Source of the DNA: Nocardioides scoriae
GTDB lineage: Bacteria; Actinomycetota; Actinomycetes; Propionibacteriales; Nocardioidaceae
Length of the DNA stretch: 64,000 nucleotides
NCBI RefSeq assembly: GCF_900104965.1
Contig: NZ_LT629757.1
Location: 3,286,001-3,350,000, forward strand
Reading direction: 5' to 3'
Both the position numbers and the translations under genes were made by a program. Below the pieces are notes generated by a model, which was given only the letters and a program-made list of their open reading frames with translations, was not told where the DNA came from and searched no databases. Numbering within the stretch: the stretch's first letter is position 1; every line of letters begins with the position of its first letter. Positions 28,029-34,748 of this stretch are shown in pieces.

Positions 28029-28670
28029 TCAACCCGCCCCGCCGGCAATCCCGTGGCGACCCCAGCGTCCCCGGTGCACGACCTCGTCGAGGTCGCGTCG
28101 CGGGCGCCGCGTGCGCGAGCCGGCCGCCCCGCCCGGGGCCGGGTGGCCGATGGTGATCGCCCCGACCGGGGTGAACTCCGCCGGGATCCCGAAGGCCGTC
28201 GTCACCGCCTCGACGCGGTCGGGCGGCACGCCGAAGAAGCAGCCGCCGAGGCCCTCGTCGACCAGCGTCTGCAGCACCAGCAGCGAGGCCATCGCGGCGT
28301 CCATGTGCCAGTAGGGCACCGACCACGGGGACCCCTCGGTGCCCTCCTGGGCGACGGCACGGCCCTTGTCGGGCGCGGCGTACCGCTCGACGTACGCCGC
28401 CCGGCTCGAGCACGGCAGCACCACCACCGGGGCCCGCACCATCCCGGCCAGCCAGCGGTCGGGGGCCGCGACGCCGTCGGAGGTGGCCGCCCAGAAGCGG
28501 CCGACGTCCTCGGGGGCGTCGAGCACCAGGAAGCCCCACCCCTGGGTGAACCCCGCGCTCGGCGCCCGGGTCGCGTGGGCGAGGGCGCGGTCCACGACGG
28601 CCGGGTCGACGGCCTCGTCGGTGTAGCTGCGGACCATCCGGCGTCGTCGCACGACCTCGCGGAACTCCAT
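28029..28670 (-). CDS. Nitroreductase family protein
   Basis: 213 residues from ATG 28670 (MEFREVVRRRRMVRSYTDE); an ATG at 28682 would add four residues. FMN-contacting basic N-terminus, HATRAPSAGFTQGWGFLVLD, GLGGCFFGVPPDRVEAV near 155, and the family ending RPRRDLDEVVHRGRW followed by an extra ten residues. It is an FMN-dependent oxidoreductase of unknown substrate. It is divergent from the allC-like gene with only about 10 bp between starts, so each promoter must lie inside the other gene. It interrupts the plus-strand hut region. Confidence 0.85.
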   Translation of the reverse strand: MEFREVVRRRRMVRSYTDEAVDPAVVDRALAHATRAPSAGFTQGWGFLVLDAPEDVGRFWAATSDGVAAPDRWLAGMVRAPVVVLPCSSRAAYVERYAAPDKGRAVAQEGTEGSPWSVPYWHMDAAMASLLVLQTLVDEGLGGCFFGVPPDRVEAVTTAFGIPAEFTPVGAITIGHPAPGGAAGSRTRRPRRDLDEVVHRGRWGRHGIAGGAG

Positions 28671-28680
28671 GGGGGCCAGC

Positions 28681-29904
28681 ATGGCTGAGGACTTCGAGCA
28701 GATGTGGCGCGACCTCGCGCCGGTGGGGCGCTCGTCCGCGAGCGGCGGCTACTTCCGCCAGCCGTTCACCGCGGCCGAGACCGAGCTGCGCGGCTGGTTC
28801 GCCGAGCAGTGCGCCGCCCGCGACCTGGCCCTCGAGGCCGACGGCAACGGCAACCTGGTGGCGACCTGGGCGCCCCCGGCGGGCGACGCGGCCGGGCCGG
28901 CGGTCCTCGTGGGCTCCCACCTCGACTCGGTCCTCGACGGCGGGGCGTACGACGGGCCGCTCGGCGTGGTCTCCTCGCTGGCCGCCGTCGACCTGCTGCG
29001 CGAGCGCGGCGTGGTGCCGCGCCGGCCGGTGCTGGTGGGCGCCTTCGTCGAGGAGGAGGGGTCGCGCTTCGGCGTGGCCTGCCTCGGCTCCCGGTTGCTG
29101 ACCGGGGCGACCTCGCCCGAGGCCGCCGCCGCGCTGCGCGACCGCGACGGCGTGCCCTTCCTCGACGCGATGGCCGCCGCCGGCCACGAGCCGGCCCCCG
29201 GCCCGGCCGCCTGGCTGGACCGGGTCGGCTGCTTCCTGGAGCTCCACGTCGAGCAGGGCCGCGACCTGGTGCACCGCGACCTCCCGGTCGGGCTCGCCGG
29301 GGAGATCTGGCCCCACGGCCGCTGGCGCTTCGACTTCACGGGCGAGGCCAACCACGCCGGGGCGACCCGGATGGAGGACCGCCGCGACCCGATGCTGACC
29401 TACGCCATGACCGTCCTCGCGGCCAACAAGCAGGCCCGGCTCGCGGGTCAGCGCGCCACCTTCGGTCGCGTCGACGTCGCCCCCAACGGCACCAACGCCG
29501 TGCCCTCGCGGGTCACCGCCTGGCTCGACGCCCGGGGCGACTCCGACGAGGCCCTGGCCGCGCTCGTGGGCGAGGTCGAGCGGCAGGGGTCGCAGCGGGC
29601 CGACCGCGACGGCACCGGCCTGGCCGTGACCGCCGAGTCGGTCTCCGGGGCGGTCCGCTTCGACACCGGCCTCACCGCCCGGGTCGGCGCCGCGCTGGCC
29701 GACCGCTTCGGGGAGGTGCCGGTGCTCCCGTCCCTGGCCGGCCACGACGCCGGCGTCCTGGCGGCCTCCGGCATCCCCACCGCCATGCTCTTCGTGCGCA
29801 ACCCCACCGGCGTCTCGCACTCGCCGGCCGAGCACGCCGAGACGGCCGACTGCCTGCTCGGCGTGCACGCGCTCGCCGACGCCCTCGAGGCGCTGGTCGC
29901 GTGA
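28681..29904 (+). CDS. Allantoate amidohydrolase-like M20 amidase of the hut operon
   Basis: 407 residues from ATG 28681 (GGGGG five nt upstream; an in-frame ATG at 28669 overlaps the divergent start). Zn ligands of the AllC/carbamoylase family: VGSHLDSV (His80), AYDGPLGV (Asp91), FVEEEGSRF (Glu125-126) and LELHVEQG. It hydrolyses N-substituted amino acids. Since hutF produces N-formylglutamate and no hutG is present, it may supply the deformylase step; this role is inferred from position. Coupled to hutF by a GTGA overlap. Confidence 0.85.
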   Translation: MAEDFEQMWRDLAPVGRSSASGGYFRQPFTAAETELRGWFAEQCAARDLALEADGNGNLVATWAPPAGDAAGPAVLVGSHLDSVLDGGAYDGPLGVVSSLAAVDLLRERGVVPRRPVLVGAFVEEEGSRFGVACLGSRLLTGATSPEAAAALRDRDGVPFLDAMAAAGHEPAPGPAAWLDRVGCFLELHVEQGRDLVHRDLPVGLAGEIWPHGRWRFDFTGEANHAGATRMEDRRDPMLTYAMTVLAANKQARLAGQRATFGRVDVAPNGTNAVPSRVTAWLDARGDSDEALAALVGEVERQGSQRADRDGTGLAVTAESVSGAVRFDTGLTARVGAALADRFGEVPVLPSLAGHDAGVLAASGIPTAMLFVRNPTGVSHSPAEHAETADCLLGVHALADALEALVA

Positions 29905-31241
29905 CGGCGTACCTGCTCGAGCACGCGCTGCTCCCCGACGGCGTCGCCTCCGACGTACGCGTCGAGGTCGCCGACGGGGTGATCGCGGGAGTGCTGGACG
30001 TCCTTTCCAGTGACCTGACGTCTGTTGCAACAGACGTCAGGTCACCGATCACCCGGACGTCCGGGGAATCAGCGGCCCCGATCCCGGTCCCCGGCCTCAC
30101 CCTCCCCGGCCTGGCGAACGGCCACAGCCACGCGTTCCACCGGGCGCTGAGGGGGCGCACGCAGACCGAGCGGGGGTCGTTCTGGACCTGGCGCGAGCAG
30201 ATGTACGCCGTCGCGGCCGACCTCACGCCGGACTCCTACTTCGAGCTGGCCCGCGAGACGTACGCCGAGATGGTCGCCACCGGGATCACCGCGGTCGGGG
30301 AGTTCCACTACCTGCACCACCAGCCCGACGGCACGGCGTACGACGACCCCAACGAGATGGGGCGGGCGCTGCTGGCCGCGGCCGACGACGCGGGGATCCG
30401 GATCCGGCTGCTCGACACCTGCTACCTCGCGGCCGGGTTCGGGCGACCCCCGGAGGGGGTGCAGCGGCGCTACTCCGACGGCGACGCCCACGCCTGGGCC
30501 GAGCGGGTGGCGCTGCTCGACGACGACCGGGTCGGGGTGGCGATCCACTCCGTGCGCGCGGTGCCGGCCGACCAGCTCGCGACCGTGGTCGAGGCCGCCG
30601 CGGGCCGCCCGCTGCACGTGCACCTGTCGGAGCAGGTCGCCGAGAACGACGCCTGCCTGGCCGCCACCGGCCGCACGCCCACCCAGCTGCTCGCCGACCA
30701 CGGGGCGCTCGGCCCGCTCACCACCGCCGTGCACGCCACCCACCTCACCGACGCCGACGTGCGGCTGCTGGGGGAGAGCCGCACCCGGGTCTGCTTCTGC
30801 CCGACGACCGAGCGCGACCTCGCCGACGGCATCGGCCCCTCGCGGCGGCTGCACGACGCCGGGGCGGTGCTGACGCTGGGCTCGGACAGCCACGCGGTCA
30901 TCGACCTGTTCGAGGAGATGCGCGCCGTCGAGCTCCACGAGCGGCTCGCCACCCAGGAGCGCGGCCACTGGTCGGCGCTGGAGCTGCTGGCGGCCGCCAC
31001 CCGCGACGGCCACGCGGCGCTCGGCCTCGACGACGCCGGCGCGATCGAGGTCGGCCGCCGCGCCGACCTGGTCACCGTCGACCTCACCACCGTCCGCACC
31101 CGCGGCGCCGGCGCCGCCCCGGAGACCCTGGTCTTCGCGGCGGGCGGCGCCGACGTGCGCCCGTTCCCGGGGGGAGTCGTGGGTGCCAGCGGGCGCCAGG
31201 GCGCCCTCCCACCCGCACGACTCCCGGAGGAGGCCCGATGA
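29901..31241 (+). CDS. hutF: Formimidoylglutamate deiminase, altered by two repeat insertions
   Basis: 446 residues from GTG 29901. Amidohydrolase-fold enzyme that converts N-formimidoylglutamate to N-formylglutamate and ammonia. Metal ligands are in [15 protein letters not shown] (His75, His77), with [11 protein letters not shown] and [16 protein letters not shown] further on. Residues 31-58 are encoded by an 81-bp palindromic repeat inserted in frame between the first strands of the N-terminal sheet. After [12 protein letters not shown] the usual closing strands (about 30 residues ending in VVVDGRxVVxDG-like sequence in the family) are replaced by residues from a second repeat. Whether the enzyme still folds is open; the frame is intact and coupled both ways. 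Confidence 0.87.
29993..30073 (+). repeat. 81-bp dispersed palindromic repeat, copy B, inside hutF
   Basis: Same element as at 24635-24715 and 59151-59231; 81 bp is 27 codons, so the reading frame of hutF is kept. The central hairpin differs from copy C by matching changes in both arms (CCTGACGTC/GACGTCAGG against CTGGACGTC/GACGTCCAG), so pairing is preserved even within a coding region. The outer palindrome is imperfect here (GGGGAATC in place of GGGTGATC). Confidence 0.92.
31172..31225 (+). repeat. GTCGTGGG-family palindromic repeat, copy 2, at the hutF 3' end
   Basis: A hairpin with outer arms GGGAGTCGTG and CACGACTCCC and inner arms GGGCGCC/GGCGCCC. It shares the core GTCGTGGGNGCCAGCGGGCG with the repeat after hutU (19831-19876). 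It encodes the last residues of HutF and ends 12 nt before the hutI start codon. Confidence 0.8.
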
Positions 31242-32389
31242 GCTCCGTCCTGCTGACCGGCATCGGCGAGCTGGTCACCAACGACCCCACCCACGACGGC
31301 ACGCCGCTGGGCCTGCTCACCGACGCCGCGGTCGTCGTCGAGGACCACCGCGTCGCCTGGGTGGGCCGTCGCCACGAGGCGCCGGCGACCGACGACGCGC
31401 GGGACCTGGGCGGCCGCGCGGTGCTGCCGGGGTTCGTGGACTCCCACTCCCACCTGCTCTTCGCGGGCGACCGGGCGGGCGAGTTCGCGGCCCGGATGGC
31501 GGGGGAGTCCTACACCGGCGGCGGCATCCGCACCACGGTGGCCGCGACCCGGGCCGCCACCGACGAGCAGCTCGAGGCCAACCTGGCCCGCCACCTGGCC
31601 GAGATGCGCCGCCAGGGCACCACCACCGTCGAGGTCAAGAGCGGCTACGGCCTCAGCGTCCACGACGAGGCCCGGGCGCTGGCGATCGCGCGTCGCTGGA
31701 CCTCGGAGACGACCTTCCTCGGCGCCCACGTGGTGCCGCCGGAGCACGCGGACGACCCCGCGGCGTACGTCGAGCTGGTGACGGGCCCGATGCTGGAGGC
31801 GGCCGCCCCCCACGCGCGGTGGATCGACGCCTTCTGCGAGCGGGGCGCCTTCGACGCCGACCAGGCGCGTGCCGTCCTGGAGGCGGGCGCCGCGGCCGGC
31901 CTGCGGGGCCGGTTGCACGCCAACCAGCTCGGGCCCGGGCCCGGCGTGCGCCTGGCGTGCGAGCTCGGGCTCACGGCGGTCGACCACTGCACCTTCCTCG
32001 CCGACGCCGACGTCGAGGCGCTGGTCGGGTCGGGCACGGTGGCGACGCTGCTGCCCGGCGTGGAGTTCAGCACCCGCTCGCCGTACCCCGACGCCCGCGG
32101 GTTGCTCGACGCCGGCGTCACCGTCGCGCTCGCCAGCGACTGCAACCCCGGGTCCTGCTACACCTCCTCGCTGCCGCTGTGCGTGGCGCTGGCGGTGCGC
32201 GAGATGCGGATGACGCCCGCGGAGGCGGTGTGGGCGGCGACCGCGGGCGGGGCCCGGGCCCTGGACCGCGACGACGTCGGCGTCCTCGCCCCGGGCCGCC
32301 GCGCCCACCTGACGGTGCTCGACGCCCCCTCCCACCTGCACCTCGCCTACCGCCCCGGCGTGCCGCTGGTCGCCGAGGTGATCGCCTGA
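31238..32389 (+). CDS. hutI: Imidazolonepropionase
   Basis: 383 residues from ATG 31238 (ATGA overlap with hutF; GGAGGAGG upstream comes from the repeat flank). It opens the ring of imidazolone propionate to N-formimidoylglutamate, the step between hutU and hutF. Metal site: [17 protein letters not shown] near residue 66; [14 protein letters not shown] near 127; [15 protein letters not shown] (shortened GPG loop) near 227; and [16 protein letters not shown] near 305. Length is typical. It is the last hut gene; an acidic small peptide gene follows after 68 nt. Confidence 0.95.
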
Positions 32390-32457
32390 TTCGATCCGGC
32401 GAGAACGGGCACGGAGGTGGCGGCGCACCGCAGCGCCCACCCATCCCAGGAGGCGAC

Positions 32458-32703
32458 ATGAGCGAGACCCCGAACCAGCCGCTCGGCGACGACGAGATCG
32501 AGACCACTCCCGCGACCGGCGGCGACAGCGGCCACGGCCCGGCCGACGCGCCCGGCAGCGACACCGCCGGCCACGACGGCACCGACGGCTCGGACAGCGA
32601 CGCCTCCGACGGCAGCTCGCACGGCCCGGCCGACGCTCCCGGCAGCGACACCGCCGCCCACGACGGCACCGACGGCTCCGACAGCGACGCCTCCGACTCG
32701 TAG
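32458..32703 (+). CDS. Small acidic repeat peptide, possible modified-peptide precursor
   Basis: 81 residues from ATG 32458 with a strong AGGAGG site. Residues 1-23 (MSETPNQPLGDDEIETTPAT plus GGD) look like a leader. Residues 24-52 and 53-81 are tandem 29-residue repeats differing at three positions, each HGPADAPGSDTA-x-HDGTDG-SDSDASD. The peptide has no Cys, Lys or Arg, many Asp, Ser and Gly, and two His per repeat; it is surely unstructured. The stop TAG abuts the GTG start of a JmjC/cupin oxygenase with no gap. Precursor of a modified or metal-binding peptide is my inference; I know of no characterised member. Confidence 0.7.
   Translation: MSETPNQPLGDDEIETTPATGGDSGHGPADAPGSDTAGHDGTDGSDSDASDGSSHGPADAPGSDTAAHDGTDGSDSDASDS
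32527..32700 (+). repeat. Two tandem 87-bp repeats within the acidic peptide gene
   Basis: 32527-32613 and 32614-32700 are 29-codon direct repeats with a handful of base changes, producing the duplicated half of the acidic peptide. They run right up to the stop codon. Confidence 0.9.
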
Positions 32704-33849
32704 GTGGACGCTCTCGACCTGCTCAGCGGCGACGCCCAGACCTTCGTGGAGAAGGTCTGGGCGTCGCACGTCCACGTCCACCGCGCCGAGCCCGACGAGC
32801 TCGTCGGCCTGTTGTCGTTCGCGGACGTCGACCACCTGCTCACCAGCACCGCCATCCGCACCCCCGCGGTCCGCGTCGCCCGTGACGGCGCCGTGCTGCC
32901 GGCCTCCGCGTTCACCCGCAGCGGGTCGACCCTGGCCGGCCAGCCCCTCACCGGCCTGGTCGACGCCCGCAAGGTCGCCGACCTGTTCGAGGACGGCGCC
33001 ACCGTCGTGCTGCAGGGGCTGCACCGCTACTGGGCACCCCTGACGAGGCTGGTCGCCGAGCTCGAGCTCGCGCTGGGCCACCCGTGCCAGGCCAACGCCT
33101 ACCTGACCCCGCCCGGTTCGCAGGGCTTCGCGGTCCACAGCGACAGCCACGACGTCTTCGTCTTCCAGACCCACGGCTCGAAGCTGTGGGATGTGCACCC
33201 CGCGCCGCTGGAGGACCACGAGGACGCCCGCGAGGTGCTGCTCGAGCCCGGCCTGTCGATGTACCTCCCGACCGGCACGCCCCACGCCGCGCGCGCCCAG
33301 GACACCGTCTCCCTGCACGTGACCGTCGGGATCAACCAGCTGACCTGGCGCAGCCTGGTCGACCGTGCCGTCGAGCAGGCGCTCGCCGGGCTCGGCGACC
33401 TCGACACCCACCTGCCTGCCGGTCACCTCGACCGGCCCGGTGTGCTGGCGCAGGGCCTGGCCGAGCGGCTCGGCCGGCTGTCCGACGCCCTGGGCGCCCT
33501 GGACCCCCAGGCGGTGGCCGACGCGCAGGCCAGCTCCTTCCTCCAGGGCCGCGTCACGAGCCCCCTCGGCGGCAGCCTGCTCGACCGGATGGCGCTGGCC
33601 GACCTGGCCGGGGACACCCCGCTGCGGCGGCGCCCCGGCCGCGCCTGCGTGCTGCAGCCGGACGGCGACCGGCTCCACCTGCTGCTCGGCGACCGCCGGG
33701 TCACGGTGCCCGCCCGCATCACGACCGCGGTCGAGCAGCTGCGCGGGCTGCTGGAGCTCACGCCCGACGACCTCGACCTCGACCCCGCCTCGAGCCTCGT
33801 GCTGTGCCGTCGACTGGTCCGCGAGGGCCTGCTGGAGGTCCGGCGCTGA
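32704..33849 (+). CDS. JmjC/cupin-4 family Fe(II)/2-oxoglutarate oxygenase (ribosomal-oxygenase-like)
   Basis: 381 residues from GTG 32704, directly after the acidic peptide stop. The cupin core has the HxD...H iron site: GFAVHSDSHDVFVFQ (His145, Asp147) and LPTGTPHAARA (His194), placed as in the E. coli YcfD family; LWDVHPAPL follows. The C-terminal third resembles the dimerisation and winged-helix part of that family. YcfD-type enzymes hydroxylate ribosomal protein residues, but here the gene is locked to a repeat peptide, so that peptide may be the substrate (inference). The 3' end contains GGAGG seven nt before the next start. Confidence 0.8.
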   Translation: MDALDLLSGDAQTFVEKVWASHVHVHRAEPDELVGLLSFADVDHLLTSTAIRTPAVRVARDGAVLPASAFTRSGSTLAGQPLTGLVDARKVADLFEDGATVVLQGLHRYWAPLTRLVAELELALGHPCQANAYLTPPGSQGFAVHSDSHDVFVFQTHGSKLWDVHPAPLEDHEDAREVLLEPGLSMYLPTGTPHAARAQDTVSLHVTVGINQLTWRSLVDRAVEQALAGLGDLDTHLPAGHLDRPGVLAQGLAERLGRLSDALGALDPQAVADAQASSFLQGRVTSPLGGSLLDRMALADLAGDTPLRRRPGRACVLQPDGDRLHLLLGDRRVTVPARITTAVEQLRGLLELTPDDLDLDPASSLVLCRRLVREGLLEVRR

Positions 33850-34748
33850 GCGCCGCGCCCGTCCGCTGCTCCGGCGCCGCCCTGGAGCGGGGCGACGACC
33901 CGGCCGGCAGCGCTCCGCACCTCGCGGCGTTCCTGCTGGTCGAGCACCACGGCCCGTGGGGGCAGTCGGTGCTGCGCGACAGCCGGCTGCCCGAGGACGT
34001 GCGCCGCCACCTCGGCGGCCACCAGCACCTCAAGGTGCTCCTCGCCCGGCGGCACCACCGCGCGCACCGCGGCTCGTCGTACGCCGTGATGGCCTGCTTC
34101 CCCGGCCGTCGCCAGCTCCTCGTCCGCACGGTCGAGGACCACCGCGAGCTGCTCGACGTCGACGTCGCGGCGATCGCCCGCGGCGAGGCCCCCGAGGGCT
34201 GGGACCCCGCGCCCGGACCGGTGTACGCCGTGTGCACCCACGGCCGCCACGACGCCTGCTGCGCCGAGCGCGGTCGCCCGGTGGTGGCCGCGCTGACCGG
34301 GGTGCGGCCCGAGCAGACGTGGGAGGTCTCCCACGTCGGCGGCGACCGCTTCGCCGCCAACGTGCTGGTGCTGCCCGAGGGTCTCTACTACGGCCAGGTC
34401 ACCCCCGAGGGCGTCACCGGCCTGGCGCACCACCACGAGGCGGGCCGCCTCGACCTCGACCACCTGCGCGGCCGGTCCAGCCGGCCGATGTCGGTCCAGC
34501 ACGCCGAGGTCGCGCTGCGCCGCCACCTCGACGACGACCGCCTCACCTCCGTGCGGCTCGTCGCCCTCGACGCCGAGCGGGCGGTGTTCGCCCACGAGAG
34601 CGGTCGCTGGGAGGTGCGCGTCGAGCGGCGCACCGGTGAGCCCGCCCGGCTGACCTGCGGGGCGGCCGGGCTCTCGCGGGTCCCGACGTTCGCGGTCACC
34701 TCCCTCGTCCGGCTCGACCCCGACACCTCCGAGGCCGGGGGCGCCTGA
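33846..34748 (+). CDS. Sucrase/ferredoxin-like (Apd1/Aim32-like) [2Fe-2S] protein
   Basis: 300 residues if started at CTG 33846, which lies in a CTGA overlap seven nt after GGAGG; a GTG at 33804 would add 14 residues. The thioredoxin-like ferredoxin signature is YAVCTHGRHDACCAERGRP (Cys130, Cys138, Cys139) followed by SHVGGDRFAANVLVLPEG with His163, which are candidate [2Fe-2S] ligands. Such proteins are thought to transfer electrons. Coupling to the oxygenase suggests it keeps the oxygenase iron reduced or supplies electrons during peptide modification (inference). Confidence 0.8.
   Translation: MSAAPVRCSGAALERGDDPAGSAPHLAAFLLVEHHGPWGQSVLRDSRLPEDVRRHLGGHQHLKVLLARRHHRAHRGSSYAVMACFPGRRQLLVRTVEDHRELLDVDVAAIARGEAPEGWDPAPGPVYAVCTHGRHDACCAERGRPVVAALTGVRPEQTWEVSHVGGDRFAANVLVLPEGLYYGQVTPEGVTGLAHHHEAGRLDLDHLRGRSSRPMSVQHAEVALRRHLDDDRLTSVRLVALDAERAVFAHESGRWEVRVERRTGEPARLTCGAAGLSRVPTFAVTSLVRLDPDTSEAGGA

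Follow-up and report, generated by a model that had tools for sequence, protein, structure and literature searches.

A 64,000-nucleotide stretch of the Nocardioides scoriae genome (contig NZ_LT629757.1, positions 3,286,001 to 3,350,000; the window, numbered below from its first letter) carries three consecutive genes on the forward strand, which encode an acidic repeat peptide, a JmjC_2 oxygenase of the Fe(II)/2-oxoglutarate (2OG) type and a Suc_Fer-like [2Fe-2S] protein. This arrangement, noticed in a first-pass annotation of the DNA, holds up on re-analysis, and the cassette recurs across several classes of the phylum. Its best reading, which we hold with moderate confidence, is as a cassette like those of ribosomally synthesized and post-translationally modified peptides (RiPPs), in which the oxygenase would β-hydroxylate a ladder of Asp residues in the peptide. 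The evidence that carries this reading consists of the three genes with their active-site residues, a linkage that spans classes, a conserved leader and a regular spacing of Asp in the cores.

The three genes and their recurrence

The peptide gene (32458–32703) has an ATG start, a TAG stop and a Shine-Dalgarno sequence, AGGAGG, at 32448–32453, and encodes a putative precursor of 81 residues, acidic and repeat-bearing, which is matched once in the 4.06 Mb, single-contig host genome and has counterparts in relatives. The sequence begins with MSETPNQPLGDDEIETTPATGGDSG and continues with two repeats with HGPADAPGSDTA; the leader, residues 1–20 (32458–32517), contains the conserved PLGDDEIET. The repeats have a period of 29 residues and start at residues 25 and 54, the first being 29 residues long (32530–32616) and the second 28, running to the end of the peptide (32617–32700). 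Compared over 26 codons, they differ at 3 of 78 nucleotides, two of these differences being synonymous. The window peptide has no named family model in Pfam, NCBIfam or PHROGs, and six related peptides have none in NCBIfam.

The oxygenase gene (32704–33849) starts with a GTG immediately after the peptide TAG and in the same reading frame. Its product matches JmjC_2 (PF08007; E=4.6e-19), and all 20 of the diverse homologues compared keep H145, D147, H194 and K160, with the same letters aligned in NO66, so that the HxD...H site of the first-pass annotation is intact; we take the first three residues to be the iron triad and K160 to be the 2OG lysine. The nearest folds to its AlphaFold model, which has a mean predicted local distance difference test score (pLDDT) of 90.4, are those of NO66, MINA53, YcfD and YxbC.

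The third gene encodes a thioredoxin-like [2Fe-2S] protein of the Suc_Fer-like family (PF06999; E=1.4e-18). ATG, GTG and TTG are all absent at 33849, so a start placed there needs correcting. The likeliest start is the CTG at 33846 (gene 33846–34748), which would overlap the JmjC stop as CTGA, because ten relatives overlap there as NTGA (GTGA in five, TTGA in two and CTGA in three); a GTG at 33804 is the alternative. C7, C129, H134, C137, C138 and H162 are invariant in all 94 aligned rows, which include a few duplicate loci, and among them the conserved Cys/His set C129, C137, C138, H134 and H162 provides putative cluster ligands. Together, the open reading frames and Pfam matches confirm an acidic peptide at zero gap to a JmjC gene, followed by an apparently coupled Suc_Fer-like gene.

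The oxygenase was searched for in three sets of genomes: 98 related ones, of which 54 gave a match; 393 from the class, with 129 at E<=1e-20; and 296 from across the phylum, with 38 at E<=1e-60. The main count uses 107 non-duplicate close oxygenases, scoring at least 300 bits, for which a peptide was sought on the same strand within 1.3 kb upstream; the duplicates L001, L032, L038, L039 and L048 were left out, and L022 was set aside for having too little upstream DNA. Because these loci were selected from the matches, mainly from those with the best scores, and include many from related species, the fractions describe close homologues and not all JmjC_2 proteins. An automatic detector found an acidic low-complexity peptide upstream of 98 of the 107 oxygenases, Suc_Fer downstream of 92 and both at 85, and it fired on 0/139 opposite-strand stretches, 0/139 shuffles and 1/79 downstream stretches. 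By eye, the family peptide is upstream of 105/107: eight of the nine loci missed by the detector have it (L028, L030, L065, L082, L089, L093, L102 and L115), L107 has none, and L116 passed the detector with a different acidic peptide. The final detector was written after the DGGA-type misses of an earlier one had been seen (79/107 close and 11/32 distant oxygenases; controls 0/139, 0/79 and 0/139). At both L107 and L116 no Suc_Fer lies beside the oxygenase, and a different acidic peptide, ending DDPELxGADLxEDQxxGxGPTxEPGA, is found upstream.

Linkage was also seen from the side of the peptide. A profile of eight peptides, searched against the 98 related genomes, gave 22 matches in 21 genomes, all directly upstream of the oxygenase, and no match in the 44 genomes without the oxygenase; 33 of the 54 oxygenase-bearing genomes went unmatched, as peptides of a single type had served to build the profile. 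The peptide is also present at 21 of 22 further loci from other classes of the phylum (18 found automatically, L148 and L156 by eye, L149 on separate reading; L172 is without upstream DNA) and 21 of 22 have Suc_Fer, the set comprising 27 loci of which five repeat earlier genomes. Absence of the peptide beside most homologues had been named at the outset as what would speak against a dedicated pair. This is not the case for close oxygenases (98/107), but it is for distant JmjC_2 proteins below 220 bits, among which a peptide was detected at 2 of 29 (L025, a fragmented true member, and L084); at 220–300 bits it was detected at one of three (L118, a truncated member).

Ten of the eleven distant positives of the earlier detector are a 35-residue peptide, MDPIEVEVEDLAEVTSRDITAGGD(S/N)DGTDSSSDFI or a close variant, lying upstream of more distant JmjC_2 genes (~150–160 bits) at 10 loci of one family (f18; L127–L132 and L134–L137). 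In the two checked with Pfam, L128 and L136, a prolyl oligopeptidase gene stands just upstream of this peptide, and an ABC transporter is near it in L128; these loci look like another JmjC family that modifies peptides, this one having a protease of its own. Streptomyces clavuligerus plasmids (hits H2–H17) carry a 37%-identical JmjC_2-like gene, given as a cupin protein where annotated.

When the neighbours of 54 loci with flanks up to 3–5 kb were clustered, JmjC was recovered at all 54 and Suc_Fer at 47, and no further family recurred at more than 10 loci, apart from antisense shadow frames near the JmjC gene; a first clustering had been insensitive, recovering JmjC in 65/109 loci and Suc_Fer in 23. 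Upstream in the window, within 28669–32389, lie genes for an allantoate amidohydrolase-family hydrolase (28669–29904) and the hutI imidazolonepropionase (31238–32389), the latter keeping this position in only a few close relatives. Histidine-degradation neighbours were rejected as part of the cassette and look incidental, because an upstream hutI is common to only 5/109 loci.

Leader, core and the C-terminal domain of the oxygenase

The leader PLxDDDIxT or a variant of it is conserved in most members, being EPLSDDDMTT-like in the clade of the window and LxDDDMTT or LTDEDIETV elsewhere; one group of loci has lost it. Behind the persisting leader the core is of different types, DGDATD/DADGTD ladders or EGPADGGAxGTPGVHDGGADGGA repeats, and the window core mixes features of DGDATD/DADGTD and EGPADGGA-type cores. 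The number of repeats also varies, with two HGPADAPGSD units in the window and three in its closest relatives, L003 and L004. Thus, the three-gene order with a conserved leader and a varying repeat number, predicted by the first-pass annotation, is seen in most members, and the linkage supports its proposal of a leader-plus-repeats layout and a dedicated peptide–oxygenase pair. Judged from sequence, the cassette appears to have two of the features expected of a RiPP system, namely a precursor with a conserved leader and a variable core and a linked dedicated enzyme. At L149, in a genome with no Suc_Fer-like match at E<=1e-5, a third repeat type, SADGTDQGVxGGTYGPRDA, follows a leader of the usual kind, PLGDDDISSS.

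Residues were counted in 117 cores, trimmed because some peptide starts are mis-called and with L149 and L150 left out. Asp is present in all 117 and is the sole acid, amide, basic, thiol or aromatic residue of which this is true; Ser is found in 109, Thr in 102, Pro in 65, His in 49, Asn in 32, Arg in 21 and Cys in none. The hydroxylated residue had been proposed to be Asp, His or Pro. Of these only Asp fits all members, and the counts make it the likely target, while His (49/117) and Pro (65/117) are ruled out as general targets. Furthermore, the Asp residues are regularly placed: in DGTD-type cores, 96% of the steps from one to the next have a spacing of 2 or 3 (39% when shuffled), and in DGGA-type cores 52% have a spacing of 4 (9.5% when shuffled).

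The oxygenase chain ends in a predicted winged-helix domain (residues 305–381; 33616–33846), modelled with strands at 316–320, 323–327 and 332–336, a helix at 337–348, a short helix at 354–356 and a helix at 361–373. As modelled, this strand-then-helix order matches that of a RiPP recognition element (RRE). We presume a C-terminal winged helix to be common to ribosomal oxygenases of the NO66/MINA53/YcfD type, and the oxygenase profile aligns to 4csw up to position 375, supporting a shared domain. The docking model was made by giving AlphaFold the natural in-frame stretch from peptide to oxygenase with the stop read as Gly. In it, leader residues 1–20 are ordered (block pLDDT 73 and 86), with a short helix at 11–13 and a strand at 15–18, and residues 22–81, which hold the repeats, are disordered at pLDDT <50. 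The sole strand difference from the enzyme alone is residue 331, added at the start of β3; a short helix at 241–243 is additional. We place the leader strand on β3 because a strand needs a partner and only β3 grew, and a leader strand on β3 is the RRE geometry described in PMC12710340. The leader is probably read, on this model, by the oxygenase's own C-terminal winged helix, a domain that the first-pass annotation does not mention.

Leader and domain are also associated across loci, with leaders scored by a simple motif rule and six rows with short oxygenase frames left out. The motif is present in 78 of the 83 peptides whose oxygenase has a well-conserved C-terminal domain, and the five that fail it carry variants (PLSDQDIEAT, LDDDTTTP, LDDTTTP, LDDDAGTE and LDEEDTAP). 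Beside a degenerate domain, where the catalytic part still scores ~300–340 bits, the motif is found in 2 of 18, and one of these two, L115, is a loose-motif artefact.

Proposed chemistry and its alternatives

In the mechanism that we propose, the peptide and the oxygenase would be translated as a coupled pair, and the leader PLxDDDIxT would bind as an extra strand to β3 of the winged-helix, RRE-like domain. The disordered core, an Asp ladder spaced by Gly, Ala, Ser and Thr, would thereby be fed to the JmjC active site, where many of the Asp side chains would be hydroxylated, the β carbon being the likeliest position. The FIH/NO66/YcfD group are established protein side-chain hydroxylases, and this family chemistry, together with the universal presence of Asp in the cores, suggests β-hydroxylation of Asp. 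The product, presumably a polyhydroxylated acidic peptide, would be suited to hard metal ions, Ca2+ or Fe3+, and the [2Fe-2S] protein may be an auxiliary redox partner. Going further, the cassettes could form a RiPP-like family, spread over several classes, in which a JmjC enzyme with a built-in leader-binding domain makes poly-β-hydroxyaspartyl peptides from ladders of 6–33 Asp per core, that is, gene-tunable polymers for binding metals, with the gene itself setting a ligand spacing of 2/3 or 4 residues; this fuller proposal is tentative, with a chance of holding in every part that is well short of even.

Several points weigh against β-hydroxylation of a docked peptide. Hydroxylation is proposed here from genes and predicted structures, and docking of the leader against β3 is a prediction, taken from a model without coordinates or a scrambled-leader control. 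Comparison of the C-terminal domain profile with PqqD domains by hhalign gave no relationship (probability 0.2%), and we call the domain RRE-like, not an RRE, for this reason; RREs diverge strongly in sequence, so this null is weak evidence only. A tree built from the catalytic part has only two changes of domain state, and leader loss with domain decay was therefore dropped as strong covariation; the association fits the model without proving it independently. Strong purifying selection on the peptide is not seen in simple codon statistics: a pooled comparison of the leader (10 codons, 22 loci) gave pS (synonymous) 0.34 and pN (nonsynonymous) 0.17, and the whole peptides of L003 and L004 differ at 4.8/78.7 synonymous and 8.2/239.3 nonsynonymous sites. 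A first-codon comparison of L002 with L003 (1.7/11.8 and 19.3/39.2) was discarded as meaningless because the leaders are offset by one residue. Iron regulation was rejected, as the best matches upstream of the peptides to an IdeR/DtxR-type box, in what we take to be its usual form, were no better than those in shuffles. In addition, no protease or exporter is conserved within ~3 kb in the 54 loci, which is unusual for an exported RiPP. Such linked genes are common, not universal, in RiPP systems, and because none recurs nearby the product may have an intracellular role, or the factors it needs may be encoded elsewhere.

The Suc_Fer-like gene is a further such point. It is missing beside the oxygenase in 15/107 loci, at least three of these at contig ends, and of 11 genomes with a Suc_Fer-less cassette, six have no Suc_Fer-like match at E<=1e-5. 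The ferredoxin therefore seems auxiliary and not part of the core chemistry. Of the earlier proposal that it keeps the iron reduced, the coupled gene stands and a required role is weakened, and the first interpretation as a whole is partly supported.

Finally, Gly and Ala, like Asp, are in 117/117 cores. This also favours the alternative that the oxygenase modifies the peptide by another 2OG reaction, such as cross-linking, desaturation, backbone oxidation or cleavage, or hydroxylation of Thr, Ala or Gly, with Asp as a spacer or metal ligand, which we regard as unlikely but a serious contender. In the available parts of the sources, 2OG-dioxygenase macrocyclisation in RiPPs is the title of a reference in PMC12710340, and RiPP JmjC enzymes take unusual residues such as ornithine (PMC12257519, PMC12707348). 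The closest folds, however, are protein side-chain hydroxylases, the conserved regularity lies in the spacing of Asp, and the 52 DGTD-type cores have no Tyr, Phe, Trp or Cys.

It is distinctly improbable, in our view, that the peptide is no substrate but an acidic metal or calcium binder which supplies or buffers iron for the oxygenase and the [2Fe-2S] protein, the oxygenase acting elsewhere, for example on a ribosomal protein. Asp ladders do resemble hard-metal binders, iron is needed by two of the three proteins, the closest relatives with solved structures have ribosomal proteins as substrates, and the lack of a conserved protease or exporter nearby would fit as well; yet the leader persists while the core type changes and takes an ordered form in the model with the enzyme, both as expected of a substrate, and its loss goes along with a decayed C-terminal domain. 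A reading frame open by chance in repetitive, GC-rich DNA, which low complexity, high GC and weak codon evidence might suggest, has a negligible probability and is rejected by the detector controls (98/107 against 0/139, 0/139 and 1/79) and by the profile search (22/22 matches adjoining the oxygenase), the start, ribosome site, leader and tight junction all recurring.

Relation to known systems

In the literature searched, open-licence PubMed Central papers, we found no description of a peptide–JmjC–Suc_Fer cassette, and it is apparently undescribed, with strong genomics and a predicted, unproven chemistry. If β-hydroxylation of the Asp ladder is right, the cassette would join protein hydroxylases of the NO66/MINA/FIH kind to peptide natural products, as a minimal two- or three-gene actinobacterial system that places many hydroxyaspartates in one ribosomal chain and as a little-described bacterial way of making a modified peptide. 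It would also offer a simple model of how a docking leader lets a JmjC oxygenase select its repeated sites, and a hard-metal-binding peptide that can be programmed genetically.

Bregman et al. 2025 (PMC12710340) note RRE domains fused to JmjC PF08007 and place the closest bacterial homologues (~30% identity) in RiPP-like contexts, a domain pairing like that predicted for the window oxygenase. The available part of that text is without a peptide, motif, ferredoxin partner, distribution or chemistry, and the two are compared by description only; the published remark is directly testable here because the precursor is next door. The JmjC (cupin-like) hydroxylases BipG and PbsQ act on ornithine of biphenomycin-type RiPPs, with ~+16 Da upon co-expression, and share with the window cassette a JmjC oxygenase beside a ribosomal precursor (PMC12707348 and PMC12257519). 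They perform one tailoring step within a many-enzyme cluster, whereas here JmjC is the sole recurring modifying enzyme and the core is an Asp ladder.

NO66, MINA53 and YcfD have the overall fold and the HxD...H site of the window oxygenase, and NO66 also shares the lysine at the 2-oxoglutarate position; they differ in acting on His or Arg of ribosomal proteins, according to the molecule names of their structures. We know of no adjacent leader-bearing repeat peptide for any of the three. The Suc_Fer-like protein resembles the Apd1-Aim32 thioredoxin-like ferredoxins, and the Cys/His set is intact in all 94 rows of the cassette protein. FIH and AspH are also 2OG oxygenases, and the residues they hydroxylate are Asn/Asp or His of repeat or EGF-like domains. 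FIH aligns only distantly with the window oxygenase, and the substrates of FIH and AspH are folded domains, whereas the core that would be modified here is predicted to be disordered.

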